Assembly: GCA_946480925.1 (NCBI GenBank)
Contig: CAMLLU010000112.1
Coordinates: 1-11,787 of the forward strand
Length of the DNA stretch: 11,787 nt
Origin: an uncultured Rivibacter sp.
Lineage (GTDB): Bacteria > Pseudomonadota > Gammaproteobacteria > Burkholderiales > Burkholderiaceae
Direction of reading: 5' to 3'
In this document: positions 1 to 11,766 of the stretch, piece after piece
How the letters are laid out: each line of letters starts with the position of its first letter
Position numbering within the stretch: position 1 is the stretch's first letter
Notes under the pieces: generated by a model
Database searches by the model: none
What the model was told of the DNA's origin: nothing
Seen by the model: the letters and a program-made list of their open reading frames with translations, nothing else
Position numbers and translations under genes: made by a program

Positions 1-649
1 GCGCCTGCGTGATGCCCGCCATGATCTCGGCGGTGCGCTTCTTCTTGAGCAGGTCGGGGTCGTTGCTCGAGCTGATCGTGTCGTTCGAGCCGCCCAGCCC
101 CAGGTTGAAGGTCGTGTTGTTGTCTGGGGTCGAAATGCGACCGTCCAGCGAGTACGCGTTGGATTTGTAGTCGTGCTCGGTGGAGTGGCTCACGCCCACG
201 CCGAGCGCAGCGCGGTCGAAGTAGTGCATCAACTTCACGTCACCGGCGGTGCGCTCGTCGTTCATGCCCTTGTCGACGGTGGCACCGGACACCGACGAGT
301 AGTAGCGCGGCGTGGCGCCCGAAACGCTGTCGTGCACCAGGGAGCCTTCGAGCGACCAGCGGCTGCCGATGGGCGCGAGCACGTAGAGCGACGGCGCATC
401 GACCTTGATGCGGTCGAACGTGCCGGACTCGTTGCCGGTGTAGTCCGGGTAGCGCGTGCGCACCTTCTGGCGGTCTTCGTAGTGCAGGTAGCGCAGCGAC
501 ACGATGCCCTGCTCGGGCGCGCCCTGCGCATGCGCTGCCGTGGGCAGCACCCCCGGCAGGCCGAGTGCGGCCAGCACGATGCTGCCGAGCACCTTGCCCT
601 GCTGCGGGGCAACGCCTTCGCCTTCGCGTTGGAGATCAGTTGCAGCCAC
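1..649 (-). CDS. DUF3570 domain protein, N-terminal part (runs off the left edge)
   Basis: About 216 codons are present and the C-terminal half lies outside the window. I chose the GTG at 649 because a GGGAGG Shine-Dalgarno sequence (655-660) sits 5 nt upstream, inside the last codons of the DUF4266 gene, which it overlaps by 14 bp. The protein has a hydrophobic segment at about residues 20-36 and a probable signal-peptidase site at AHA-Q (39-42), so it is exported. The mature part has alternating aromatic/polar stretches (for example SLRYLHYEDRQK near residue 50) and the asparagine/serine-rich GGSNDTISSSND segment, which I recognise as typical of DUF3570. These are uncharacterised proteins, probably outer-membrane beta-barrels, commonly encoded next to DUF4266 and a thioredoxin-like protein, as here. 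Family assignment is from memory of family pattern; the molecular function is unknown. Confidence 0.85.
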   Translation of the reverse strand, partial: MAATDLQREGEGVAPQQGKVLGSIVLAALGLPGVLPTAAHAQGAPEQGIVSLRYLHYEDRQKVRTRYPDYTGNESGTFDRIKVDAPSLYVLAPIGSRWSLEGSLVHDSVSGATPRYYSSVSGATVDKGMNDERTAGDVKLMHYFDRAALGVGVSHSTEHDYKSNAYSLDGRISTPDNNTTFNLGLGGSNDTISSSNDPDLLKKKRTAEIMAGITQA

Positions 650-917
650 AGCCGCCTCCCCCAACACCGTAACCGCCCGTCGCGTTTTCCTTGCTGGTGT
701 AGATGTGCTGCACGTAGCTCTGGTCGAGCACGTCGGCGCTCATCGTCATTTCCTTCTTGGCAAGGTTGCCCTTCTCCCAGGGCTGCGGCGGTTGATAGAT
801 GGCGGCACAGCCGCTCGTTGCGGCCAGAGCGACCAGTGCCGAGCCGGCCGCGGCGAGGCGGCCCAACTTCTTCGCGACTGCTCCCAACGCGTCGCTGCTG
901 TCTTTGCGCTTGCTCAT
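636..917 (-). CDS. DUF4266 small exported protein, probable lipoprotein
   Basis: The protein has 93 residues. I prefer the ATG at 917 (MSKRKDSS) because AAGGGA lies just upstream (921-926). An in-frame ATG at 929 overlaps the TlpA stop codon but has no Shine-Dalgarno sequence. After a basic N-terminus comes a hydrophobic stretch (residues 21-35) ending in SGC with Cys37. This resembles a lipobox, although Thr at -3 is not the usual Leu, so lipidation is likely but not certain. The mature part has a WEKGNLAKKEM segment, a HIYTSKENATGG segment and the C-terminal GGGGCGCN tail, which together are the DUF4266 signature. The family is small, of unknown function, and typically partners DUF3570. The C-terminal Cys-Gly-Cys could bind metal or be redox-active (inference). 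It is followed by the DUF3570 gene with a 14-bp overlap and preceded by the TlpA-like gene with an 8-nt gap. Confidence 0.9.
   Translation of the reverse strand: MSKRKDSSDALGAVAKKLGRLAAAGSALVALAATSGCAAIYQPPQPWEKGNLAKKEMTMSADVLDQSYVQHIYTSKENATGGYGVGGGGCGCN
655..660 (-). promoter_or_regulatory. Ribosome binding site deciding the DUF3570 GTG start
   Basis: The minus strand reads GGGAGG, then CGGCT, then GTG. It lies inside the Gly-rich C-terminal codons of the DUF4266 gene, so the bases encoding the conserved Gly/Cys tail also recruit ribosomes for the next gene. This supports translational coupling. Confidence 0.7.
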
Positions 918-925
918 GGTTCCCT

Positions 926-1426
926 TCATTGCGCAGCCAGTGCGGCCACGATCGCCTCTTCGAGGGCCTTGCGTTCTTCTTCGCGGAAGCCGGCGTGGAC
1001 CTTCACCACCTTGCCGTCGGCGCCCACCAGCACCGAGCTGGGCATGCCCTTGATGGCGTAGCGCTTGGCGGTGTCACCCTTGGGGTCGAAGGCCACGGTG
1101 AACCTGGCCGGCACGTCGGCCAGGAACTTCTCGGCATCGGCGGTCTTCGCGTCGAGGTTCACGCCCACGATCTGCAAGCCGCGCGGGCCGTACTTGGCCT
1201 GCATCTCGTTCATCCACGGGAAGGACTGCTTGCACGGGCCGCACCACGAGGCCCAGAAGTCCACGTAGACCACCTTGCCCTTGAGCTGCTGCAGGGCCAC
1301 CTGGCCCTTCGCACCGGGCAGATCGAACAGCGGAGCCGGCTGGCCGGGTTCGGCAGCCCAGGCCACCGCGCTGGTCAACAGGCTCACGGCCAACATCACC
1401 GCGGCGCGGTACCAGTTCTTATGCAT
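926..1426 (-). CDS. TlpA/ResA-like thiol:disulfide oxidoreductase, secreted
   Basis: The protein has 166 residues. The ATG at 1426 is preceded by AAGGAG at 7-nt spacing; a longer in-frame reading to 1498 lacks this support and would put Arg-rich sequence before the signal peptide. Residues 8-24 form a Sec signal peptide ending in AWA-A. The mature protein is a thioredoxin fold of the AhpC/TSA-redoxin (TlpA) type. It has VDFWASWCGPC with catalytic Cys62 and Cys65, and GMPSS with the cis-proline Pro129 opposite the active site. Such periplasmic proteins usually reduce disulfides, for example apocytochrome c haem-site cysteines or a dedicated partner. Here it overlaps the end of the cytochrome/repeat protein gene by 8 bp, and that protein has both a haem site and many paired cysteines, so it is the obvious candidate client (inference). 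No CcdA/DsbD-type electron donor is in the window. Confidence 0.95.
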   Translation of the reverse strand: MHKNWYRAAVMLAVSLLTSAVAWAAEPGQPAPLFDLPGAKGQVALQQLKGKVVYVDFWASWCGPCKQSFPWMNEMQAKYGPRGLQIVGVNLDAKTADAEKFLADVPARFTVAFDPKGDTAKRYAIKGMPSSVLVGADGKVVKVHAGFREEERKALEEAIVAALAAQ

Positions 1427-3974
1427 TGGGAAGCTCCTTCGATCGATTCGTGGGTGTTTGAACACGGTTGCCGCGCAGCACGAACACCGCCGCGGCAATC
1501 AACGCAAGCCACAGCAGCAGCACGGGCTCGATCGCCCCGCCGCCGACGTTGGTCATCTCGGTGGTGGCCTGGCCGGCAAGCATCACTTCGCTCTTCTGGC
1601 CGCTGGCCGACTGCACGGTGAGCACGCCCGAGCTGTCGCCCGAGGTGCCGGGCGCATAGACCACCGTGACGGTGCAGCTCGCGCCGGGCGGCAGCGTCCA
1701 CGGCACGCTGCGACACGCATCGGCCGCCTGGTTGTCGGTGAGGACGAACGGGCCGGTGGTGGTGACCGCCGAGATCGTGGCCGTGGCCGCGCTGGTGTTG
1801 CGCACCAGCACCGAGAGCGGTTCGGAACGCTGGCCGGTCTTCAGCCCGATGGAGCGGTAGTCGAGCATGACGGCGCTCGTGGCCAGGCTGCCGCCGCCCG
1901 TCGAGCCGCCGCCGGTGCCACCACCAGTGCCGCCGCCACTGTCGCCGCCATTGCCCCCGCTTGCGCCCACCCCGGTGCCGGAAAGCTGCACGTCGGGCGG
2001 CGCGGTGCCGTCGGAGGCGACCTGCAGCATGGCCGACTGCACACCCGAAGCACCGGGCACGAAGCCCACCTGCAGCATGCAGCTCGCACCTTGCGCCAGC
2101 GTGGCGCCAGCCGTGCAGCCGCTGCCGGCCGTCACGGTGAACGACGATGCGTCCGCACCCGACACGCCGGCCGTGCCCAGCGTCACCGAGCCCGGGCCCT
2201 GGTTCACCAGCACCAGGCTCTGGCTCGCAGAAGCCGAACCCACCGCGGTGGAGGCGAAGCTCAGCGACGTGGTACTGCCCTGCCACGCGAGCGTGGGCAG
2301 ATCCGCCGTGGTGCCCAACCCGGTGAGCACGATGGAGTTCGGCGAGCTCGGTGCGTCGGTGACGACGAGGATGGACTCCGCCGCATTCGCCACGGCCGGC
2401 CGGTACACCACGTTGAGCTTGCAGGAAGCTTTGACCGCCAGGCTGGCCGGGCAGTCGTGCGTCACGGAGAACTCGGCCGAGCTGCTCTCGATGCCGGTGA
2501 CGGCCAGCGGCCCGGTGCCGGTGTTGGTGAGCGTGATGACGCGGGGCGTGGAACTGGTGCCCAGCTTCACCGCGCCGAAGCCCAGCGCCACCTGCGACAG
2601 GCTCACTTCGGATTGCGGTGCGTTGATGCCGCTGCCCGCCAGGCTGATGGACGCCGTGCCGCTGGGTGCGTTGGAGGCGATCTCGATGGTGGCCGACTTG
2701 CTGCCCAGCGTGACGGGCTTGAGCGCTGCGGTGACGGTGCAGCTGCCCTCCATCGGAACCACCGCGCCCACGGCACAGGTACCGCCCAGCACTACTTCCG
2801 CCGCATCGGTGCCGATCACACGGATGGCCGTGAACGACAGGCCGGACTCGCCGTTGTTGGTGAGCGTCAACGTCCTGGCCGCGCCGGTGGCGCCCACCAC
2901 CTGCTGGCCGAGGTCGAGCGAGGTCGCATCGAGCGCGATGCCGGGTTGCGCCGTGGCGTTGCCCGTGCCGTTGAGGCTCACGCTGGCCGAGCTGCCGGCT
3001 GCGTTGTGCGCGATGGCCAGGCTGGCATTGCGCGCGCCCTGCGCAGTGGGCTTGAAGCTCACGGCCACGAAACAGCTGCTGCCGCTGGCCACGCTGCCGC
3101 CGGCCGCGCAGGTGGAGCTGCCGTCGATGGCGTAGTCGCCCGGCTGCGCACCACCCAGCGAGATCGATGAGATCTTCAGCGGCGCAGTGCCGGTGCTGCT
3201 GACCGTGATGCGCTGCGGCTGCGAGGTGCCGCCCACCACGCGCGAGAACGACAGCGACGTGGGCGAGAGCGACATCGCCGGCGACTCGTCCACCGCCGTG
3301 CCGGCCAGGCTCACCGTGGAGCTGCCGCCGCTGCCGTTGTGGCGCACGGTGAGGCTGGCTGCGCGTGCGCCCACCGCCGTGGGCTTGAACTGCACCGTGA
3401 TGCTGCAGTTGGCGCCGGCCGACACGCTGGCGCCCACCATGCAGCTGCCGCCGCTCACGGCGAAGTCGCTGCCCGAGGTGACGTCGATGCCGCTGATCAT
3501 CAGCGCGCCCGCGGCACCTGTCGCGTTGCTCACCACCACCGTCTGCGCGGCGCTGGTGGTGCCGATGTTCTGGCTGGCGAACTGCAGGCTGGCCGGCGAC
3601 ACGCCCACCGAGGGCGCGCCGCTCACCGCGATGTAGCTGGGCGTGCCGCCCAGCGTGGCCGAGATGTAGGCTGCGATGTCGTTGAGCTCGGAGTCGGTGA
3701 GCTTGCCCGAGAGGAAGCTCATCTGGCTCACGCCGCCCAGCGCCGTCTTGATCCTGGGCGCGCTGACGCCGCCGACGATTCGGTTCTGCGGGTTGCCCGG
3801 CAGCGAGCCGTGGCAGGCGTTGTTCGAGCAGCTCTGCTTGCCCGACACCACGGCGTTGCCATAGAGCCGCTGGCCGTTGGCCGCGTCTTGCGCCGAGGCC
3901 GCAGCGGCCCAGCCGCATGCGGCGAACACCAGTGCGCGGGCCAGCACCGCGAAGGGCTTCATGCCTTCAGCCAC
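1419..3974 (-). CDS. Cytochrome c domain fused to six choice-of-anchor-D type repeats, with C-terminal membrane tail
   Basis: The protein has 851 residues. The GTG at 3974 is chosen because AAGGAGG lies 7 nt upstream; an ATG four codons later has only a poorly spaced GAAGG. The signal peptide ends at ASA-Q (27-29). Residues 30-110 are a class I cytochrome c domain. Its haem site is C49-SNNA-C54-H55, a CX4CH rather than the usual CXXCH, with Met85 in SQMSF as likely distal ligand and the closing helix LTDSELNDIAAYI. Six Ig-like repeats of about 100 residues follow (about 123-227, 233-338, 345-449, 455-553, 561-667, 698-803). Each ends in a pattern like VSLAGTA and each contains a cysteine pair 9-12 residues apart. 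A Gly/Ser linker (668-697) separates repeats 5 and 6. The end carries NVGGGA, a hydrophobic helix (815-833) and an Arg, resembling a sorting tail. It is probably envelope-anchored with electron-transfer capacity; the partner is unknown. Confidence 0.9.
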   Translation of the reverse strand: MAEGMKPFAVLARALVFAACGWAAAASAQDAANGQRLYGNAVVSGKQSCSNNACHGSLPGNPQNRIVGGVSAPRIKTALGGVSQMSFLSGKLTDSELNDIAAYISATLGGTPSYIAVSGAPSVGVSPASLQFASQNIGTTSAAQTVVVSNATGAAGALMISGIDVTSGSDFAVSGGSCMVGASVSAGANCSITVQFKPTAVGARAASLTVRHNGSGGSSTVSLAGTAVDESPAMSLSPTSLSFSRVVGGTSQPQRITVSSTGTAPLKISSISLGGAQPGDYAIDGSSTCAAGGSVASGSSCFVAVSFKPTAQGARNASLAIAHNAAGSSASVSLNGTGNATAQPGIALDATSLDLGQQVVGATGAARTLTLTNNGESGLSFTAIRVIGTDAAEVVLGGTCAVGAVVPMEGSCTVTAALKPVTLGSKSATIEIASNAPSGTASISLAGSGINAPQSEVSLSQVALGFGAVKLGTSSTPRVITLTNTGTGPLAVTGIESSSAEFSVTHDCPASLAVKASCKLNVVYRPAVANAAESILVVTDAPSSPNSIVLTGLGTTADLPTLAWQGSTTSLSFASTAVGSASASQSLVLVNQGPGSVTLGTAGVSGADASSFTVTAGSGCTAGATLAQGASCMLQVGFVPGASGVQSAMLQVASDGTAPPDVQLSGTGVGASGGNGGDSGGGTGGGTGGGSTGGGSLATSAVMLDYRSIGLKTGQRSEPLSVLVRNTSAATATISAVTTTGPFVLTDNQAADACRSVPWTLPPGASCTVTVVYAPGTSGDSSGVLTVQSASGQKSEVMLAGQATTEMTNVGGGAIEPVLLLWLALIAAAVFVLRGNRVQTPTNRSKELPNA
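1434..1439 (-). promoter_or_regulatory. Ribosome binding site of the TlpA-like gene
   Basis: AAGGAG on the minus strand, 7 nt before the ATG at 1426. It lies within the last codons of the upstream repeat-protein gene and fixes the start downstream of a longer open frame. Confidence 0.75.
1893..1962 (-). repeat. Low-complexity Gly/Ser linker-coding repeat
   Basis: Irregular repeats of gccgcc/ccacca type codons encode a GGNGGDSGGGTGGG-like linker between the fifth and sixth repeats of the cytochrome/anchor-D protein. It is a flexible spacer at protein level and prone to slippage at DNA level. Confidence 0.6.
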
Positions 3975-5443
3975 GGCAGGTCCTCCTTGGCGACGTTCCA
4001 GATCGCATCGGTGTGGTCGCCGTTGGCGCCGCGCACGCTGGGGTAGCCCCAGGCACCGTTGTCGGTGGAGTAGTCGCTCGCGGGCAGGCCCATCGAGCGC
4101 AGCACCATGCCCATGAACTGGTTGTAGAGCAGGCCCGAATACCAGTGCGGATTCGACGACCAGTTGAAGGAGTTCAAGTCGCGGTAGTCGAGCGACAGCC
4201 CGGTCTTGAAATAGCCGCCTGCGTTGCCGAAGGTGACGATGGGGATGCAGCGGTTGTGGTGGTGGCCGGGGTTGCCGCCCGAGCCCAGTTCATGGCCGCT
4301 GGCCACCAGCGCCTTGTCGAGCAGCGTCTTGCCGTCGGCCGTGGTCACCTGGTCGAGCTTGCGCGCGATGTCGAGCTGCGCACCGTCGAACTGCAACTGC
4401 ACGGCGGCGCTGTAGCCGGCGCGCTTGGCCGGGTCGTCCAGCGCATGCGCATAGTTGTTGTGCCACGCATGCTCAGGCTCGGGGCCGAAGGTGTAGGTGT
4501 TGGGCCCGCACACGTAGATGCGGCTGATGCCGGCAGCGAAGGCGGCCACGATGATGTCGTTCCACAGCTGCTCGCATTCGGCCTGGGTCGCGGGCTGGCC
4601 GTAGAAGCCGGCCGAGGACTCCACCGTCGCGGTGTCCTTGGTCGGCCGCGTGAAGCTGCTGGTCACCGTCTGCTGCAGCTTCGACTGCACGTCGGCCAGC
4701 ATGTCCATGTAGTTGCCCAGGCGCGTGCGGCAGTCGGCCGAGCAGCGCGGGTCGCCCATCACGAGATCGGCGTGCTCCTTCACGCGGTCCACCAGCACCG
4801 TCTGCTCGACGGCCGGCGTGCCGGTGGTGGGCGTGGTGGTGGTCTTGAACAGGCGGTCGAACAGCTTCACGTTGCTGTCAGCCGTCTGCTCGGTGGTAGC
4901 GATGCCCGAGCCGGACTTTGCGAGCGACACGAGGTTGCGCACGATGGCCGGCTGCAGCGGGCTCGTCGGGTAGAAGGCACGCGAGGCGGCCATCACCTGG
5001 TCGATGGTCGGGTTGCTGCTGTCGCCGCCCAGCGGGCCGCCGCGGTTGTGGCCCACGCTGGTGGCGAAGTCCAGGCCGTTGATCACGTTCATCAACGACA
5101 ACATGCGCGGCGTGAGCCGGCTGGCCTTGGCCTGCAGGATCTCGCTGATCACCACCATGTCGCCGCTGGTGGTCGACTTCAGCGGCGCGCTGCGCACGCC
5201 GATGCCGCCGTAGGTCGTGGTCTGCGCGGGCGCCACGTCGAGCAGCGGGCCGTAGAACTGGCTCTGGAACACCCCGTGCTGGGTGGTCATGTGCACGAAG
5301 TAGCGCTCGGACGAGGCCTGCGCCAGGGTCTGGGCCTCGGCATCGCGCGGCAGCAGCGAAGGCAGCAGCGGCACGGCCAGCGCGGCCCCGCCGGCGCCTA
5401 GCAGGAATTGGCGACGCGACACACGGTCGAAGTAAGGCTTCAT
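3959..5443 (-). CDS. DUF1552 family protein, Tat-exported
   Basis: The protein has 494 residues. The ATG at 5443 overlaps the upstream stop codon (ATGA) and has GGGAG (5449-5453) at 5-nt spacing. The open frame continues upstream to 5848 but only as Arg-rich out-of-frame sequence. The N-terminus has a twin-arginine signal: S9-R10-R11-Q-F13-L, a hydrophobic stretch (14-31) and AEA-Q (35-38), implying export of a folded, perhaps metal-containing protein. Family features include the histidines near residues 51-56, the HNRGGPLGG segment, a HAWHNN segment (325-330), DGKTLLDKALVASGHELG (His384) and HHH (394-396) followed by PIVTFGNAGGYFKTG. DUF1552 proteins are functionally uncharacterised; they resemble DUF1501-like, alkaline-phosphatase-type hydrolases, which is a fold-level inference. 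They are regularly encoded directly after a DUF1592 protein, as here, mostly in planctomycetes and myxobacteria. Confidence 0.9.
   Translation of the reverse strand: MKPYFDRVSRRQFLLGAGGAALAVPLLPSLLPRDAEAQTLAQASSERYFVHMTTQHGVFQSQFYGPLLDVAPAQTTTYGGIGVRSAPLKSTTSGDMVVISEILQAKASRLTPRMLSLMNVINGLDFATSVGHNRGGPLGGDSSNPTIDQVMAASRAFYPTSPLQPAIVRNLVSLAKSGSGIATTEQTADSNVKLFDRLFKTTTTPTTGTPAVEQTVLVDRVKEHADLVMGDPRCSADCRTRLGNYMDMLADVQSKLQQTVTSSFTRPTKDTATVESSAGFYGQPATQAECEQLWNDIIVAAFAAGISRIYVCGPNTYTFGPEPEHAWHNNYAHALDDPAKRAGYSAAVQLQFDGAQLDIARKLDQVTTADGKTLLDKALVASGHELGSGGNPGHHHNRCIPIVTFGNAGGYFKTGLSLDYRDLNSFNWSSNPHWYSGLLYNQFMGMVLRSMGLPASDYSTDNGAWGYPSVRGANGDHTDAIWNVAKEDLPWLKA
3982..3988 (-). promoter_or_regulatory. 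Strong ribosome binding site deciding the GTG start of the cytochrome/repeat protein
   Basis: AAGGAGG on the minus strand, then ACCTGCC (7 nt), then GTG at 3974. It lies within the last codons of the DUF1552 gene, so the two genes overlap by 16 bp. It is the most consensus-like Shine-Dalgarno sequence I found in the window. Confidence 0.8.
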
Positions 5444-7302
5444 GGCTGCTCCCGGCGGATCGACTTGAACTCGTCGCGCATCACGATGGAGGCGAACAGG
5501 CTGCGCAGGTTGGCGCCGCTGGCCGCCTGCTGGCGGATGGACTCGATCACCGCGGCGTCGCTGTCCACGTCGGCGCGGCCGAAGCCGTAGCGGAAGTAGT
5601 TCTTCGCGAAGCAGCGTTCGAAGTGGCCGCTTTCCAGCACGTACTGCTGCGCCTGCGCCGCGTTGGAAAGCGCCCGCGAAGTCATGCCCGAGAGGTTGGC
5701 CACCACGGTCGGGTCGATGGGCTTCTCGCCCCGCACGCCGCCGCTGTCGTTGCGCACGACCTCGGTGCCGCGCACGCGGCCCAGCGCGTCGAAGCCTTCG
5801 AACACGAAGCCCCAGGGGTTGATGAGCTTCTCGTGGCACTGCACGCACGAGGTGCCTTCCATCTGCGTGACGCGCTGCACGCGTTCACGCGTGGTCAGCA
5901 CGCCCGACAGATCAGCCGCCTTGTTGGACTGGTCCATCACCGGCGCGGGCAGCGCCTGGCAGGTGAGCGCGCTCAGTACCTTGATGCCGCGCGAGATCGG
6001 AAGGGTGGTGTCCGACGAGCCGTTGGCCACGAGGCCGATGCGCGTCATCAGCCCCACGCGTTCGGGCTCGGTGAAGCTGGGCGGCGCGGAAGCGCCGTCC
6101 CACACGCTGGTCTTGTAGAGCGCGGCGAGATCGGCCGAGCGCGCGAACGAATGGCGGTCGGTCAGCACCTGCTGCAGCGAGCCGTTGCGCGACGCGACGT
6201 ACGACACCATGTCGAGCACGTCGTTGATGGCGGCGTCGCGCGTGGTGGCCAGCGGCTTGAAGCTGCCGGCGAAGGCGTCGAACTTCGGGTCGCCCACCTT
6301 GCCGTCCATGGCCACCAGCTCGTCGAGCCGGAACCACTGGCGGAAGAAGCTGCGCATCGCCACGTCGGCGCGCGGGTCCTTCAGCATGCGGGTCACCTGC
6401 GCGGTGTAGACGTCGGGCTTGAGCAGCGCGCCGCTGTCGGCATCGGCGATGAGCGAGGCGTCGGGCACCGAGTCCCACAGGTGCAGCGCCAGGCGCGTGG
6501 CCAGCTCGGGCGCAGTGAGCGCCGTGCAGGTGCCGGAGCCGCTGCTGCTCACACCCTTCTCGACCACGAAGTAGGTCTTGGGAGAAGCGATCATGGTCGC
6601 CAGCACCTTGGTCACCGCGGCACGGTCGGCCGAGCCGCCGGCGGCCTTGCGATACACCTCCACCTCCGCATCGGTGAGCGGCTGGCGGAACAGCACGCGA
6701 CCGGCCTTGCGAACGAAGGCGCGCATGCAGTCGTCTGCGCTGCCGGTGCAGCTGCCCAGCATGGTGGCCACTCGCGCATCGCTGCTGGCCATGTCGGCGG
6801 CCAGCTTGCCTGCGGTGGTGTGGATGGCCGAGACCTGCCGGCTGTTGAGCGACTGGTCGAGGCGCCAGTAGCCCTGGTGGCGCGACGAGTCCGGGTTGAT
6901 CGACGCATCGAGCGGGAACTGCGCGGTGTCGATCACGAGCTTCTGGATACGCGCGGCGGCGCCGGTGTCGGGCACCAGCGCGTTCGACAGCTCGGTGAGT
7001 GCATTGACGAACTGCGCACGCGTCAGGCGCCGCGGCGACGTGGCGCTGTAGCAGCCCGGCGAGGCCGCCACCGGCGTGGGCGCGGGGGTGGCGCCCGGAG
7101 CGGGGGTGGCGCCCGGGGCCGTGGTGGGGCTGGGGGTCGGTTGTGAGGGTTGGCCGTGCGGATCGGGCGCGGGCGTCGGAGTCGGCGTCACGGCCACGGG
7201 CGAGCCTTGGCCCGTCGTCGTGTCGGAACCATCGCCTCCGTTGCAGGCAGACAAGAGCAGGGCGGCCGCAAGCAAGCCACCGCTGATGGCGGGTATTCGC
7301 AT
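5440..7302 (-). CDS. DUF1592/DUF1588/DUF1585 family lipoprotein with a CxxCH site
   Basis: The protein has 620 residues. The ATG at 7302 is chosen because it starts a lipoprotein signal (LLLSAC, Cys20) with GGAAAG 7 nt upstream; the open frame extends to 7356 but adds a charged leader. A Pro/Thr-rich tether spans about 34-82. The folded part follows the order of the planctomycete-type DUF1587/1595/1592/1588/1585 set: RLTRAQFVNALTEL (about 91), a VLFRQPLTDAEVEVYRK region (about 203), SPKTYFVVE with ELATRLALHLWDSVPD (about 240-285), and RVGLMTRIG through the SC486-VQ-C489-H490 motif and FEGFDALGRVR. It ends with a C-terminal YFRYGFGR and a final SIVMRDEF stretch. The CxxCH can bind haem c, giving a cytochrome-like protein, though haem binding in this family is inferred. 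Function is unknown. First gene of the operon; it overlaps DUF1552 by 4 bp. Confidence 0.92.
   Translation of the reverse strand: MRIPAISGGLLAAALLLSACNGGDGSDTTTGQGSPVAVTPTPTPAPDPHGQPSQPTPSPTTAPGATPAPGATPAPTPVAASPGCYSATSPRRLTRAQFVNALTELSNALVPDTGAAARIQKLVIDTAQFPLDASINPDSSRHQGYWRLDQSLNSRQVSAIHTTAGKLAADMASSDARVATMLGSCTGSADDCMRAFVRKAGRVLFRQPLTDAEVEVYRKAAGGSADRAAVTKVLATMIASPKTYFVVEKGVSSSGSGTCTALTAPELATRLALHLWDSVPDASLIADADSGALLKPDVYTAQVTRMLKDPRADVAMRSFFRQWFRLDELVAMDGKVGDPKFDAFAGSFKPLATTRDAAINDVLDMVSYVASRNGSLQQVLTDRHSFARSADLAALYKTSVWDGASAPPSFTEPERVGLMTRIGLVANGSSDTTLPISRGIKVLSALTCQALPAPVMDQSNKAADLSGVLTTRERVQRVTQMEGTSCVQCHEKLINPWGFVFEGFDALGRVRGTEVVRNDSGGVRGEKPIDPTVVANLSGMTSRALSNAAQAQQYVLESGHFERCFAKNYFRYGFGRADVDSDAAVIESIRQQAASGANLRSLFASIVMRDEFKSIRREQP
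5449..5453 (-). promoter_or_regulatory. Ribosome binding site of the DUF1552 gene
   Basis: GGGAG on the minus strand, 5 nt before the ATG at 5443. It sits in the final codons of the DUF1592 gene and supports the start that leaves a clean Tat signal at the N-terminus. Confidence 0.6.
7082..7117 (-). repeat. Two tandem 18-bp units in the Pro/Thr linker of the DUF1592 protein
   Basis: The plus-strand unit gcgggggtggcgcccgga (7082-7099) is repeated at 7100-7117 with one mismatch. It encodes ATPAPG repeats in the tether after the lipid anchor, and its length probably varies between strains. Confidence 0.75.
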
Positions 7303-7391
7303 CGCAGTTCTTTCCGTTGCCGCATGGCGATGCATGCGGGATGAGGAGTCAGCCATCTGCGACGTGCACCCGCAGCGTGACCGATCGTGCC

Positions 7392-7407
7392 GCTCGCAGC
7401 AGCGAGC
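7392..7407. repeat. Small stem-loop in the leader of the envelope operon
   Basis: GCTCGC, loop AGCA, GCGAGC: a 6-bp perfect stem with a 4-nt loop. In the minus-strand transcript it starts about 13 nt after the stop codon of the 8-codon leader ORF. There is no U run, so it is not an intrinsic terminator. Confidence 0.45.
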
Positions 7408-7420
7408 TAGGCGTGCGCCG

Positions 7421-7447
7421 CTACGGGCTGTGCCGGACGATGCTCAT
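7421..7447 (-). CDS. Possible 8-codon leader peptide upstream of the envelope operon
   Basis: The minus strand reads ATG AGC ATC GTC CGG CAC AGC CCG TAG, encoding MSIVRHSP. GGAGG (7453-7457) lies 5 nt before the ATG, a better ribosome binding site than that of the first structural gene. It ends 118 nt before the DUF1592 start codon and is followed by a small stem-loop. It could be a leader peptide or a chance match; the peptide shows no run of one amino acid of the kind used in classical attenuation. Confidence 0.3.
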   Translation of the reverse strand: MSIVRHSP

Positions 7448-7523
7448 GAAAACCTCCAGTGCCAATGTTTGTTTTCGAAGAGGCTTCGCCTTCTTCCGTC
7501 GCCTATCTGCATGTGCGTGGCGA

Positions 7524-7556
7524 TCGGCGGCGAATGTAAAGTTTCTTGGCCGCCGA
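7524..7556. promoter_or_regulatory. 8-bp inverted repeat flanking an AT-rich core, candidate operator
   Basis: TCGGCGGC (7524-7531) and GCCGCCGA (7549-7556) are perfect inverted copies separated by 17 nt of AT-rich sequence (gaatgtaaagtttcttg). Such a dyad in a divergent promoter region could bind a dimeric regulator or form a leader stem-loop. No regulator of this kind is encoded next to it except the kinase gene. Confidence 0.4.
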
Positions 7557-7613
7557 CTCATGACGGACCCATGATGGACTCGCGTCCAATTAACCGTTTT
7601 GTTACTGCCTGTG

Positions 7614-7643
7614 GCGACGGCGAGAACCGCGTCTCGCCGTCGC
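7614..7643. repeat. Perfect 12-bp inverted repeat with 6-nt loop
   Basis: GCGACGGCGAGA (7614-7625), loop ACCGCG, TCTCGCCGTCGC (7632-7643), with possible G-T extension at both ends. It is a very stable stem but no T run follows it on either strand, and no gene ends nearby to need a terminator. It may be an operator, an RNA structure in a leader, or a small-RNA stem. Confidence 0.65.
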
Positions 7644-7785
7644 TGACTGGCGTCACAGGGGAATCGCTGCGCAACACCCGCACGAAGCGAGGTCGCGCTC
7701 CGCGAAGGTTGCTTACGCGGCGTTGCAAAGCTCAACTGGCCGGTGGACCGTCAATGCGGCGTGCGCGCAACACGTGCACGGCGCT

Positions 7786-7813
7786 TTGCCGGGTCGCGAC
7801 GCGGACATAGACT
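7786..7813 (+). promoter_or_regulatory. Weak candidate sigma-70 promoter for the kinase gene
   Basis: TTGCCG (7786-7791), a 16-bp spacer and TAGACT (7808-7813), each a 4/6 match to consensus. It would give a 5' leader of about 25 nt before the ATG at 7846. Support comes only from position and partial matches. Confidence 0.25.
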
Positions 7814-7845
7814 TCCCGCCAGAGCAATCAACGGGTGGGTGGAGC

Positions 7846-9009
7846 ATGGAAGCGGCCGATGCAGCAGCAGGCGAGGCGCGCCCAGCGACGGTTCTCGTCG
7901 TCGACGACACGCCGATGAACCTGGAGGTGACCACGCGTCACCTGGAACAGCGCGGGCATGAGGTGCTCGTGGCGCAAGACGGCGAGGAAGCCGTGGTGCG
8001 CGCGGGGTTCGTGCACCCGGACCTCATCCTGCTCGACGTGGTGATGCCCGGCATCGACGGGCTGGAGACCTGCCGCCGCCTGAAGGCCGACCCGGCTACC
8101 GCCGACATCCCGGTGGTCTTCATGAGCGCGATGACCGAGTCGGTGGACAAGATCGCCGGCTTCGCCGCCGGCGGGGTGGACTACATCACCAAGCCCATCG
8201 ACGGCCCCGAGCTGCTGGCGCGTGTGGACACTCACCTCGCGCTGCATGCGCTGCGCCGGCAGCTGGCGGCACGCAATGCCCTGCTGCAGCAGGAGATCGC
8301 GGTGCGCGAGCAGACGCAGGCCGCGCTCGAGCGCTCCAACAAGGAACTCGAGCAGCTGGCCTACGTGGCCTCGCACGACATGCAGGAGCCGCTGCGCATG
8401 GTGGCCAGCTACCTGCAGCTGGTGGCCAAGCGCTACCACGGACGGCTCGATGCCGAGGCCGACGAGTTCATCGGCTACGCGGTCGACGGCGCCAAGCGCA
8501 TGCAGGCGCTCATCAACGACCTGCTCACCTATTCGCGCCTGGGCACCAAGGCGCGCCCGTTCGAGCCCACCGACTGCCAGCCCCTCATGGCCACCGCGCT
8601 GCGCAACCTGCAGGTGGCCGTCGAGGAAAGCGCGGCACAGATCGAATGCGACCCGCTGCCCCGCGTGATGGGCGATGCGATGCAGCTGCTGCAGCTGTTC
8701 CAGAACCTGCTGAGCAACGCCATCAAGTTCCGGCGCAAGGGCGAGCCGGCCCGCATCGAGGTGCGGGTGCAGCGGCAGGGCGAGCACTGGCGCCTCGCGG
8801 TGCGCGACCAGGGCATCGGCATCGCGCCCGAATACTTCGAGCGCATCTTCGTGCTGTTCCAGCGCCTGCACGGCCGCGGCGACTACCCCGGCACCGGCAT
8901 CGGCCTGGCGCTGTGCAAGAAGATCGTCGAGCGGCACGGCGGCCGCATCGGCGTCGAATCGGTGCCGGAACAGGGCACGACGTTCTGGTTCACGCTGCCG
9001 GCCGCGTAA
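7846..9009 (+). CDS. REC-HisKA-HATPase sensor-less histidine kinase (reverse hybrid)
   Basis: The protein has 387 residues. The ATG at 7846 is chosen because it starts close to the receiver domain and has G-rich GGGTGG just upstream; the frame extends to 7723 without recognisable sequence. The receiver domain (about 14-132) has acidic D20/D21, phosphoacceptor D64 in LLDVVMPG, Ser94 and Lys116 in YITKP, so it should be phosphorylated. A coiled coil (about 133-170) leads to the dimerisation/phosphotransfer helix with H177 in ASHDMQEPLR. The ATPase domain carries the N box (N287, N291), D321 in DQGIGI and the GTGIGLALCKKIV glycine loop. All catalytic residues are present. There is no membrane or sensory domain, so it is cytoplasmic and input probably arrives through the receiver. 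The kinase core resembles those of bacteriophytochromes (known family pattern). The diguanylate cyclase gene follows 126 bp downstream. Confidence 0.95.
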   Translation: MEAADAAAGEARPATVLVVDDTPMNLEVTTRHLEQRGHEVLVAQDGEEAVVRAGFVHPDLILLDVVMPGIDGLETCRRLKADPATADIPVVFMSAMTESVDKIAGFAAGGVDYITKPIDGPELLARVDTHLALHALRRQLAARNALLQQEIAVREQTQAALERSNKELEQLAYVASHDMQEPLRMVASYLQLVAKRYHGRLDAEADEFIGYAVDGAKRMQALINDLLTYSRLGTKARPFEPTDCQPLMATALRNLQVAVEESAAQIECDPLPRVMGDAMQLLQLFQNLLSNAIKFRRKGEPARIEVRVQRQGEHWRLAVRDQGIGIAPEYFERIFVLFQRLHGRGDYPGTGIGLALCKKIVERHGGRIGVESVPEQGTTFWFTLPAA

Positions 9010-9135
9010 CAGGGCCACGTTCTACCCCCGGCCGCTGCCCAACCTGGGCCAAGGGGCTTCGTTTGCGTCAAAGTACGGGCTGTTGCGCGGCCTACCGGCC
9101 CCTCCCCGCTCGCACGCAATAACCAACGACGAAGA
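9010..9135 (+). other. Short gap between kinase and diguanylate cyclase genes
   Basis: 126 bp without an ORF. It has GGCC-rich short dyads but no stem followed by a T run, and no convincing promoter. The two genes could be co-transcribed. Confidence 0.4.
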
Positions 9136-11766
9136 ATGCAGGCGACCCTCAGGACGAAAGCAGCGATCGTCACCACAGCGGTGGTGGTCGGCCTCGTGGC
9201 GCTGGCAGGCTGGTGGCAGTACCGCACGTTGTCCGCCGAATACGTGTCATTGCTCGCCCAGGAGCAGCAGGCCCTCACCGACTCGGCCGCCGCCGACCTG
9301 GACTACAAGCTCGGCATGCACCTCTCGGTGCTGTCGCGCGCCTCGCAGCAGGCGGGTGCCGAGACCTTTCGCGACGCGCAGGCGCGCCGGCGCTTCCTGG
9401 CGGAATGCGGCCTGCGGCCGATGTTCGACACCGTTGCGCTGATCGACACGAACGGCGCCGCGATCGCCAACGATCCGCCGCTCGAGCGGCCCTTCCACAT
9501 CGCCGGCCGCAGCTACTTCAAGCGCGCGGCGGAGACCGGCCGCCCCATCATCAGCGAGCCGGTGCCGGCCAGTGCCGCGCAGCTGCCTGCCGTGCTGATG
9601 CTGGCGCCGGTGCGCGCGGGCGACGGCCGGCTGCTCGGCTTCGTCGCCGCCGGGCTGGACCTGCAACGCCCCAGCATGCTGGGCAACCTGCGCCAGGCCA
9701 AGGCCGGCCAGGCCGGCTACTACATGGCCGAAACGAGCGACCAGGAACCCGTGGTCGTGATGCACCCCGACGCCGCGCGGCTGCTGCAGCCGGCCCGCGA
9801 TGCCGTGCCGGCTGCGGGCGACGTCGTCGCGCAATCGCCGGTGCCCACGGCAGGGTGGACGCTGCGCTCCGTCGTGCCGGCCGAGGCGGCCGACGCACCG
9901 CTGCAGCGCTCGCGCCAGGCGCTGCTGTGGCAGCTGGTGGCCGTGGCGCTGCTCAGTGCGGGGCTGGTGTGGCTGGCCACAGGCTGGATGATGCGGCCGC
10001 TGCAGACGCTGCTGGGCAGCATCCGCACCCTGCGCCGCACGCCCGACGCCCGGCTCGCGCTCGACGTGCGCAGCGGCGACGAACGCGGCGAGCTGGCCCG
10101 CGAGTTCGACGCACTGATGGCGCAGCTGCGCGAGCAGCGCAGCGAGCTGGCCGCCGTGCTGGACGCCTCGCCGCTGGGCCTGTTCCGCAGCGATGCCGAG
10201 GGGCGCATCGTCTACGTCAACGACGCCTACCTGCAGATCCACGGCCTGCGGCGCGAAGACACCGCCACCGGCTGGCTCTCGCTGGTACGCGAAGACATCC
10301 GCCAGCCGGTGTGGACCGAGTGGCAGCGCCTGGTGCGCGAGGGCGGCTCGCTGCAGGCCACGCGCACGCTGCGCCGTGCCGACGGCAGCAAGGTGCAGGT
10401 GTCGGTGCGCACCCGGCCGGTGTTCGTCGACGGCCGCCTGCAAGGCCAGGTCGGCACCGTGACCGACATCAGCGACCGGCTGGCCGCCGAGCGCGCACAG
10501 CGCACGCTGACGGCCATCTTCGACGCCACCACCGACTACGTGATCCAGGCCGATCCGCAAGGGCGCATGACCTACATGAACCCTGCCGCGCGGCGGATCA
10601 CCGGCGTGGAGCTCAAGGCTCCGATCGGCCATCTCAAGGTGTTCGACCTCAACCCGCCCGAGACGATCGAGCGGCTGCGCAACGAGATCATCCCGAAGGC
10701 CCTGGCCGACGGCGTGTGGGTGGGCGATTCGCTCGCGTGGGATGCGCAGCGGCGCATCTTCCCGGTGAGCCACATCGTCATCGCGCATCGCAACGCCGAA
10801 GGCCGCGCCGAATACTTCTCGGCGCTGCTGCGCAACATCTCGACGACCAAGCACGCCGAGACGGCGCTCAGGGAAAGCGAGGCACGGCTGCGCACGGTGA
10901 CCGATGCGCTACCGATCCGCGTGGCCTACATCGATGCTCGGCAGCGCTATCGCTTCAACAACCTGGCCTACGAACGCGGCTTCGGGCGGCGCCGCGAAGA
11001 GATCCAGGGCAAGACGGTGCGCGAGCTGCTGGGCGACGACGCCTACGCCGCGGTGGAGCCGCACATCCGCAAGGCACTCGCTGGCGAGGCCGTCACCTTC
11101 CAGAGCGAGATGACCACCGGCGACAGCTACGTCTGCTACGAGGCGCAGTACGTGCCGCAGTGCGGCGAGGACGGCAGCGTCATCGGCTTCCACGCCATCG
11201 TCACCGACATCACGCGGCAGAAGCTCGAAGAGCGGCGGCTGCTGCAGCTCGCGCAGGTCGATACGCTCACCGGGCTCACCAACCGGGCCGGCTTCGACGA
11301 AGCCCTCACCCAGGCCATGATCCGCGCGCGCACCTCCGGCGCGCCGATGGTGCTGATGTACCTGGACATCGACCGCTTCAAGCAGGTCAACGACCGGCAC
11401 GGCCACCTGGTCGGCGACGCGCTGCTGCGCGGCTTCGCGCAACGGCTGAGGCAGGTGCTGCGCGCCACCGACACCGTCGCGCGGCTGGGCGGCGACGAAT
11501 TCACCGTGCTCATGGAGAACCTGCCGCGCCTCGAAGTGGCCGCCACCGTGGCCGCCAAGATCGTGGGCGCGATGCGCGAGCCGTTCGACCTGGACGGCCA
11601 CCCCGTCCAGGTCAGCACGAGCATCGGGCTCGCCTTCTACCAGGGCGGCACCACCACCGCGCGCGAACTCGTCAAGCAGGCCGACGAGATGCTCTACCAG
11701 GCCAAGGGCGCAGGCCGCGACAGGTTCCAGATGCCGCTGATGCTGATCAAGGGCGGCCGAAGCTAG
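9136..11766 (+). CDS. Membrane diguanylate cyclase: Cache-HAMP-PAS-PAS-PAS-GGDEF
   Basis: The protein has 876 residues. A first membrane helix (about 9-28) and a second (about 262-284) bracket a periplasmic double-Cache-type sensor (30-258; RSYFKRAAETG at 125-135). HAMP follows (about 285-336, with DERGELAREF), then three PAS domains (about 338-449, 456-572, 580-694) and a GGDEF domain (705-867). The active site is complete: D744 in YLDIDRFKQVND and G785-GDEF. The product-inhibition site R776-ATD lies the usual five residues upstream, so it should make c-di-GMP from two GTP with feedback control. There is no EAL domain. The start has only a weak GAAG. The ligand of the Cache domain is unknown; PAS cofactors are not evident, though N-Y-F-type cores could bind small molecules. 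It probably acts with the preceding kinase in envelope-sensed signalling. Confidence 0.95.
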   Translation: MQATLRTKAAIVTTAVVVGLVALAGWWQYRTLSAEYVSLLAQEQQALTDSAAADLDYKLGMHLSVLSRASQQAGAETFRDAQARRRFLAECGLRPMFDTVALIDTNGAAIANDPPLERPFHIAGRSYFKRAAETGRPIISEPVPASAAQLPAVLMLAPVRAGDGRLLGFVAAGLDLQRPSMLGNLRQAKAGQAGYYMAETSDQEPVVVMHPDAARLLQPARDAVPAAGDVVAQSPVPTAGWTLRSVVPAEAADAPLQRSRQALLWQLVAVALLSAGLVWLATGWMMRPLQTLLGSIRTLRRTPDARLALDVRSGDERGELAREFDALMAQLREQRSELAAVLDASPLGLFRSDAEGRIVYVNDAYLQIHGLRREDTATGWLSLVREDIRQPVWTEWQRLVREGGSLQATRTLRRADGSKVQVSVRTRPVFVDGRLQGQVGTVTDISDRLAAERAQRTLTAIFDATTDYVIQADPQGRMTYMNPAARRITGVELKAPIGHLKVFDLNPPETIERLRNEIIPKALADGVWVGDSLAWDAQRRIFPVSHIVIAHRNAEGRAEYFSALLRNISTTKHAETALRESEARLRTVTDALPIRVAYIDARQRYRFNNLAYERGFGRRREEIQGKTVRELLGDDAYAAVEPHIRKALAGEAVTFQSEMTTGDSYVCYEAQYVPQCGEDGSVIGFHAIVTDITRQKLEERRLLQLAQVDTLTGLTNRAGFDEALTQAMIRARTSGAPMVLMYLDIDRFKQVNDRHGHLVGDALLRGFAQRLRQVLRATDTVARLGGDEFTVLMENLPRLEVAATVAAKIVGAMREPFDLDGHPVQVSTSIGLAFYQGGTTTARELVKQADEMLYQAKGAGRDRFQMPLMLIKGGRS

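Follow-up and report, generated by a model that had tools for sequence, protein, structure and literature searches.

A conserved operon joining DUF1592/DUF1552 and DUF4266/DUF3570 proteins in an uncultured Rivibacter sp., a possible polysaccharide-linked envelope redox system

Introduction

The closest described counterparts of the genes treated here are the ApbE/DUF3570 system, the Cellvibrio japonicus protein Cbp2D and the planctomycete-type PSCyt cytochromes. The genes lie in an 11,787-nucleotide stretch of DNA (hereafter the window) from an uncultured Rivibacter sp. (contig CAMLLU010000112.1), in which positions 1 to 7302 hold six minus-strand genes encoding, in gene order, a DUF1592 protein, a DUF1552 protein, a cytochrome/immunoglobulin-repeat (cytochrome/Ig) protein, a TlpA-like protein, a DUF4266 protein and the first half of a DUF3570 protein.

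The DUF3570 protein of Chlorobium luteolum has been shown experimentally to be flavinylated by ApbE at two [S/T]GA[S/T] sites (Meheust et al. 2021, PMC8238504), so that the DUF4266/DUF3570 pair, which an earlier note on the window had called functionally undescribed, is in fact already described. The main text of that paper reports 285 gene clusters with DsbD, typically accompanied by DUF3570 (227), DUF4266 (221) and a thioredoxin-like gene (183), as well as 316 further clusters without DsbD, and calls the purpose of DUF3570-based electron transfer uncertain.

Cbp2D is composed of X158, X183 and X132, with DUF1587 annotated (PMC8981238); PMC10916295 prints DUF1687 for the domain. An earlier study, as cited in PMC12542752, found growth to be impaired more by loss of cbp2D or cbp2E than by loss of the lytic polysaccharide monooxygenase (LPMO) gene, and a Cellvibrio DUF1592 protein with a CBM2 is tabulated in PMC6004670. 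According to the main texts of PMC8981238 and PMC10916295, no equivalent of cellobiose dehydrogenase is known in bacteria. For PSCyt genes, fusions to carbohydrate-binding modules (CBMs) and constant gene neighbours have been described (He et al. 2017, PMC5615132). No title joining DUF4266/DUF3570 with DUF1592/DUF1552 was found in the literature as far as main texts go, and Supplementary file 1 of PMC8238504 may list such clusters.

The window is read here, with a probability of roughly 45%, as the leading section of an envelope redox operon linked to polysaccharide, in which a thiol-flavin-haem line would serve a DUF1592/DUF1552 enzyme acting on plant polysaccharide.

Gene organization and conservation

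The first gene (5440..7302, minus strand, as are all six) encodes a 620 aa DUF1592-type (PSD4/PSCyt3/PSD2) c-type haem lipoprotein with Pfam DUF1592, DUF1588 and DUF1585 above cut-off; DUF1595 scored 31.4 bits (cut-off 34.2) and DUF1587 was not reported by Pfam at E 0.001. Its lipobox LSAC lies at 7243..7254 and its haem-binding motif CVQCH at 5833..5847, with C486, C489 and H490 invariant in 25/25 aligned rows. The DUF1552 (HXXSHH) protein (3959..5443, 494 aa; Pfam 32.1 bits, cut-off 30) has a Tat-like signal with the motif RRQFL. The cytochrome/Ig gene extends from 1419 to 3962 (ATG start) or 3974 (GTG start) and encodes a cytochrome c domain, choice-of-anchor-D Ig repeats (NF012200, E 1.3e-97) and a C-terminal hydrophobic stretch. 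Its cytochrome domain matched PF13442 at E 4e-4, below the family cut-off, and carries the haem-like motif CSNNACH (CX4CH, 3810..3830); C45, C50, H51 and M81 are invariant in 8/8 loci, and in 1/8 loci a CX2CH aligns with the CX4CH of the window. The two haem sites proposed in the earlier note are thus present, the second as CX4CH and not CxxCH.

A TlpA/ResA-like thiol oxidoreductase (926..1426; Pfam Redoxin and AhpC-TSA) follows, with the active-site motif CGPC at 1232..1243 read from the translation. The DUF4266 gene (636..917; Pfam 75.8 bits, cut-off 27) encodes a small lipoprotein with the lipobox TSGC and a C-terminus GGGGCGCN that contains a CXC motif (642..650) and is identical in 8/8 operon loci. 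The DUF3570 gene (1..667, start at 649 or 667; Pfam 72.5 bits, cut-off 25) is truncated by the window edge after its N-terminal half. Adjacent genes overlap by 4 nt (DUF1592/DUF1552), by 16 or 4 nt (DUF1552-cytochrome/Ig, GTG or ATG start), by 8 nt (cytochrome/Ig-TlpA) and by 14 nt (DUF4266-DUF3570, if GTG at 649 is the DUF3570 start), and a gap of 8 nt separates TlpA and DUF4266. These junctions agree with the overlaps of 4, 16, 8 and 14 bp and the 8-nt gap given earlier for the six genes. The envelope signals claimed for them were likewise recovered as LSAC, RRQFL and TSGC in the proteins named above and as Sec-like leaders in the cytochrome/Ig and TlpA-like proteins, all export signals and lipoboxes being read off the sequences by eye and not by a signal-peptide predictor.

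A genome-contig scan with the DUF1592 protein found six further loci, and a survey of relatives added G417 (loci are numbered with L, genomes with G). In what follows, 'eight loci' means the window plus seven relatives, and 'seven operon genomes' means the relatives without the window's own genome; the tblastn tables omit matches of 30 residues or fewer and cytochrome/Ig matches below 38-40% identity. The closest named relative found was Methylibium rhizosphaerae (L001), with 86% identity in DUF1592 and 91% in DUF1552. All other genomes that have the close DUF1592/DUF1552 pair (7/7) keep the order DUF1592, DUF1552, cytochrome/Ig, (TlpA), DUF4266, DUF3570. The 4-nt overlap of DUF1592 with DUF1552 recurs in 7/8 loci including the window and is replaced by a spacing of 2 nt in L003, start codons in the eight-locus comparison being nearest-fit guesses; overlapping or nearly touching genes persist down to about 45-60% protein identity. 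The six genes are a conserved unit, as the earlier note had supposed in joining both halves into one envelope redox unit, and the combination is not limited to this genome: it occurs in seven others, with a parallel operon in two more (see below). What the earlier note named as refuting its reading was thus not observed.

Few genomes have the close DUF1552 type. A genome search with Pfam PF07586 gave 0/300 in the order and missed even G001, and alignment A3 (25 rows in all, window included, drawn from 120 listed homologues) was used instead for that reason. A search with A3 found the type in 1/300 genomes of the order, namely G001; the other seven of eight matches were short and N-terminal (about 36-58 of 501 profile positions, in the Tat-signal region) and were not counted. 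Among 199 relatives four matched: G001 and G417 have the close type, G310 has distant copies, and G029 was dropped as a short N-terminal match to the Tat-signal region. The DUF1552 copies of G310 are all distant and no flavin module occurs in the DNA seen; at L027 (G310:C9, 5233-10889) two DUF1552 genes in tandem come after a distant DUF1592 gene.

Continuation into plant cell wall enzymes

The earlier note had regarded the six genes as a self-contained machine. They are not, because in relatives the operon runs on past the window edge to cellulases, Cip1-like proteins, ApbE and DsbD. Beyond DUF3570 there are a Cip1-like gene, ApbE, GH6 and DsbD in L001/L046; DsbD, a Cip1-GH5 fusion and GH6 in L002/L029; GH5, GH6, Cip1-like and ApbE genes in both L003/L048 and L004/L051; GH5, GH6, pectate lyase, Cip1-like and DsbD genes in L026/L047 (G417); and Cip1-like and ApbE genes in L005/L049, while the contig of L006 stops within the Cip1-like gene. 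Cip1, a fungal protein, is described as induced by cellulose. Cip1-like genes are thus at the locus in 7/7 relatives. In readable downstream DNA, GH6 is present in 5/6 and GH5 in 4/6 loci, ApbE is at the locus in 4/6 (and in the genome of 7/7 operon relatives) and DsbD in 3/5.

GH6, as judged from Pfam scans, the reading of L003 and a PF01341 search, was found in 5/33 genomes searched, all of them operon genomes with a single copy at the locus, and in 0/26 non-operon genomes, 12 of which have DUF4266 (Fisher 8.8e-5). Of 13 downstream enzymes checked, 12 have a loose lipobox pattern and all 13 a P/A/S/T/G run of at least 18 residues, for which reason lipid-anchored, surface-tethered enzymes would suit the data; the DUF1592 protein shows the loose lipobox pattern in 7/8 loci and long P/A/S/T/G runs in few. 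An AA10 LPMO was detected in 1/7 operon genomes (1/12 searched; AA10 was the LPMO family covered), and feeding an AA10 LPMO is therefore unlikely as a general role of the operon.

DUF1592 proteins with carbohydrate-binding modules

PF07631 matched in 8/274 genomes of the class, G001 included. In three of these the DUF1592 protein bears three CBM2 or four CBM26, with DUF1552 adjoining. At L061 (G492) and L062 (G558) a single chain combines three CBM2, cytochrome domains and the full DUF1587-1595-1592-1588-1585 set and is followed by DUF1552 and then an FCSD-type flavoprotein; at L063 (G560) the chain unites the DUF1587-DUF1585 set with four CBM26, a cytochrome and a glucose/sorbosone dehydrogenase domain, and DUF1552 is the next gene. 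A second DUF1592 place in G558 (L068) was left out of the examined loci. In G469 and G570 DUF1552 was the sole partner beside DUF1592 among the genes scanned. Overall, DUF3570 stands alongside DUF1592 in three of the eight genomes, an FCSD-type flavoprotein in two and a dehydrogenase fusion in one; no DUF3570 was found among the genes scanned beside DUF1592/DUF1552 in G310, G469, G492, G558, G560 and G570.

Directly ahead of DUF1587, L061 has a domain that matches the X183 structure from Cbp2D (7b21, E 1.3e-4) and also 8q1v (E 3.7e-9), which we take from its entry name and paper to be a protein of Teredinibacter kind; an inner part matches the FCSD haem subunit 3vrd (E 1.3e-31). For L062 the 8q1v match was at 7e-7 and 7b21 was not among the listed matches, and for L063 the 7b21 match was weak (0.0089). 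The DUF1592 protein of the window aligns with the last third of L061 (27% over 499 columns, E 9e-38) and resembles in sequence the C-terminal region of Cbp2D-like redox proteins that bear CBM2; the DUF1552 protein (P0002) aligns weakly with that of L061 (30.8 bits). Since Cbp2D has X132 with DUF1587 annotated, X132 is most likely the DUF1587-DUF1585 set, as seen by way of L061 and not of the Cbp2D sequence itself.

Flavin module and parallel operons

The DUF3570 protein of the window has two SGAT candidate flavinylation motifs (278..322; 311-322 and 278-289, minus strand) in the segment VSGATPRYYSSVSGAT, and two [S/T]GA[S/T] motifs occur in 8/8 operon DUF3570 proteins (the window and 7/7 relatives). 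A covalent flavin, overlooked in the earlier note, is on the evidence of these motifs a likely cofactor. All seven full-length operon DUF3570 proteins end in F. A C-terminal F or Y is a signature of outer-membrane barrels. Together with the recovery of recombinant DUF3570 in the pellet (PMC8238504), this C-terminus suggests that DUF3570 may form an outer-membrane barrel.

DUF4266 was found in 32/300 genomes of the order and is commoner than the close DUF1552 type. A second DUF4266 place occurs in four of six operon genomes, in regions that contain TlpA and DUF3570; neither these four regions nor 12 further DUF4266 regions, which span 13 of 37 DUF4266 places, gave a match to DUF1592, DUF1552, GH5 or Cip1. 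The plain DUF4266/DUF3570 regions examined were accordingly free of any DUF1592 or DUF1552 match in 16/16 cases. Fifteen of these regions (L036 left out) entered the motif count, and their DUF3570 proteins had two motifs in seven cases, one in four and none in four; F or Y is C-terminal in 14/15, L042 ending in E and the L037 protein coming from an over-long frame. L030, L031, L033 and L034 have motif-free DUF3570 frames despite apbE in the same 15-16 kb region, and their products may be unflavinylated or use another motif. L036 (G022:C1:662001-678000) holds two divergent DUF4266/DUF3570 sets about 6 kb or less apart. At L041 (G044, 5885-10291) TlpA-DUF4266-DUF3570-ApbE stands behind a shorter cytochrome/Ig-like protein, with DUF1592/DUF1552 absent, and a glucose/sorbosone dehydrogenase gene adjoins on the opposite strand.

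A parallel operon with tightly packed genes for a cytochrome/DUF1592-like protein, DUF1501, a TlpA-like protein, DUF4266 and DUF3570 is present in two more genomes of the class, at L067 (G428:C16, 3281-10098), with ApbE upstream of the cytochrome gene, and at L066 (G649:C24, 1738-7538), where a DUF1553 gene also intervenes and an ApbE-like frame overlaps the DUF3570 end and runs off the contig. In both, DUF4266 ends in GGGGCGCN and DUF3570 carries two motifs; TlpA, DUF4266 and the ApbE-like frame of G649 were named by reading and not by a Pfam run. As judged from the gene neighbourhoods in the class, the DUF1592/DUF1552 core is modular, occurring on chains with cellulose- or starch-binding modules and with a flavocytochrome-type flavoprotein or a fused sugar-dehydrogenase domain. 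Such electron-partner swapping, together with the parallel DUF1501 operon, provides a handle on the many PSCyt/DUF1552/DUF1501 proteins of unknown function.

Upstream region

A short open reading frame (ORF) for the peptide MSIVRHSP, with the ribosome-binding site GGAGG, lies at 7421..7447 (minus strand), about 145 nt upstream of DUF1592, and is followed by a GC-rich inverted repeat. The peptide is identical in L001, with two synonymous differences and at 142 nt upstream of 10001, and is absent from all other operon loci examined; the ORF looks like a leader peptide. The block CCATCATGGGTCCGTCATGAGT (window about 7550-7587, minus strand), with two TCATG units, is also upstream of DUF1592, is kept in L001 and is possibly a regulator site. 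LacI-type operator-like sites (at most one mismatch) numbered six in 268,768 nt, five of which lie at most 410 nt upstream of DUF1592 in 4/8 loci (two in L002, one each in L003, L004 and L026). The operator consensus was picked after the upstream DNA had been viewed, which makes the chance value of 9e-10 a post hoc figure, and the 15 loci scanned are in part overlapping.

Window positions 7723-11766 (plus strand) hold divergent genes for a response-regulator/histidine-kinase hybrid and a PAS-GGDEF protein. The hybrid as a query gave no match in L001, L002, L005 and L006 and distant-family matches several kb upstream in L003 and L004; because it is not conserved beside the operon, these plus-strand neighbours were ruled out as part of the unit. 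No sigma-70-like promoter and no intrinsic terminator were found in window 1-8000, nor was there an Rfam match or a tRNA.

Proposed function and alternatives

Gene content, order, motifs, export signals and linkage can be read from the DNA; each transfer, its direction, the outer-membrane site, the substrate and the chemistry of the following scheme are built upon them. Cytosolic reducing power would exit through DsbD and pass by way of TlpA to the CXC lipoprotein DUF4266, then to ApbE-attached flavin mononucleotide (FMN) on DUF3570, which is probably an outer-membrane barrel. From the DUF3570 flavins electrons would reach the c-type haem of the Ig-stalk protein and finally the haem of the DUF1592 lipoprotein. 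DUF1592 and its constant neighbour DUF1552 would be the working enzyme on plant polysaccharide, beside lipid-anchored GH5, GH6 and Cip1-like proteins, and would most likely act through reductive activation of an oxidant, in a role likened to that of fungal cellobiose dehydrogenase plus LPMO. The bolder proposal that DUF1592/DUF1552 forms a novel class of oxidative enzyme for polysaccharides, dependent on haem, independent of LPMO and fed by flavinylated DUF3570 as an outer-membrane flavin conduit, is doubtful. If true, it would give the DUF3570 system the end use that it lacks and bacteria a counterpart of their own to cellobiose dehydrogenase plus LPMO. Two questions meet in one operon, namely the use of DUF3570 electron transfer and the power source for a bacterial redox attack on cellulose.

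Several observations weigh against this polysaccharide-linked scheme. To our knowledge, neither DUF1592 nor DUF1552 has a known activity. Window base 1 falls inside DUF3570 and the window itself has no carbohydrate-active enzyme (CAZyme), nor did Pfam find a CBM domain on its DUF1592 chain (P0001). G005 has the operon and no GH6 in its genome (PF01341 search), and none was found for G006, a metagenome-assembled genome in which the contig breaks off within the operon; no cellulase or other CAZyme was present among the genes scanned at the parallel operons of G428 and G649. TlpA is absent from L003 and L004 (2/8 loci), DsbD is missing at 2/5 readable loci and ApbE lies away from the locus in G002 and G417. 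The window, L001, L005 and L006 lack operator-like sites with up to one mismatch. Moreover, PSCyt and glycoside hydrolase gene densities are reported to be inversely correlated and PSCyt products are predicted to be periplasmic or cytoplasmic (PMC5615132), and these two points speak against a simple shared surface role.

Electrons might also flow in the reverse direction, which is rather unlikely: DUF1592/DUF1552 would then oxidise sugar ends or cellulase-released oligosaccharides, and the haem, flavin and thiol carriers would pass electrons inward or to an acceptor. The dehydrogenase domain fused to the G560 DUF1592 protein and the flavoprotein that follows DUF1552 in G492 and G558 would fit, glucose/sorbosone dehydrogenase-type and FCSD-type proteins both being known as dehydrogenases. 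However, the G560 dehydrogenase is an additional domain, so that DUF1592/DUF1552 need not be a dehydrogenase, and DsbD at 3/5 readable loci, together with the DsbD model in the main text of PMC8238504, favours outward flow.

The model of the DUF1552 protein has a fold like that of the alkaline-phosphatase superfamily, in line with the hydrolase-like partner postulated in the earlier note, and H56, H132, H328, H333, E385 and H395 are invariant in the 25-row alignment. This modelled fold points to hydrolysis no less than to redox chemistry and counts as a further point against the proposed scheme. DUF1552 as an esterase, sulfatase or phosphodiesterase of this superfamily acting on wall decorations, with DUF1592 as a mere anchor or sensor, is nevertheless unlikely, given that the DUF1592 haem motif is invariant in 25/25, that redox partners stand beside DUF1592 in 6/8 class genomes and that Foldseek with DUF1552 gave no match at E 0.001 or better.

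That the thiol and flavin genes serve maturation alone, i.e. disulfide repair or haem attachment of secreted cytochromes and cellulases, is improbable. In profile searches the TlpA-like protein resembles ResA/DsbE (with scores under both NCBIfam cut-offs) and DsbD is nearby in 3/5 readable loci, as maturation would have it, but the two loci that lack TlpA retain both cytochromes, and maturation would not require a flavinylated DUF3570, whose two motifs are kept in 8/8. Least probable is a chance stacking of two separable modules kept together in one Burkholderiales group: each half does occur without the other, and DUF4266 is found in 32/300 genomes of the order versus 1/300 (G001) for the close DUF1552, but the tight gene spacing is retained down to about 45-60% protein identity and two other class genomes have the parallel DUF1501 operon.

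Comparison with known systems

With the ApbE/DUF3570 system (PMC8238504) the operon shares a two-motif DUF3570, a DUF4266 with a C-terminal CXC, a thioredoxin-like gene and, in relatives, ApbE and DsbD. It differs in that the thiol gene of the window is TlpA-like, of a Pfam family other than the PF13899 used in that paper, and in being joined to DUF1592, DUF1552, cytochrome/Ig and, in relatives, cellulases, partners that the main text of PMC8238504 does not name. Similarities to Cbp2D (PMC8981238, PMC12542752) are the relation to the region C-terminal to the X183-type domain of a Cbp2D-like protein, the Cbp2D sequence itself lying outside the comparison, and the link to cellulose enzymes; unlike Cbp2D, the window chain has no CBM2, X158 or X183, and there are a separate cytochrome/Ig gene, a flavinylated module and a DUF1552 partner. 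The planctomycete-type PSCyt3/PSD cytochromes (He et al. 2017, PMC5615132) likewise have PSCyt3/PSD domains beside a conserved partner gene and a carbohydrate link proposed from CBM fusions, whereas flavinylation and cellulase operons are absent from the main account in that paper. As a PSCyt3/PSD plus DUF1552 pair, the window has DUF1592, DUF1588, DUF1585 and the CxxCH motif CVQCH, with DUF1552 adjoining. The likeness to fungal cellobiose dehydrogenase plus LPMO is one of working alone, an oxidative attack on cellulose supplied by flavin and haem, the proteins being unrelated. While the DUF4266/DUF3570 half is already known, its joining to DUF1592/DUF1552, cytochrome/Ig and, in relatives, cellulases is what sets the operon apart from the described system.

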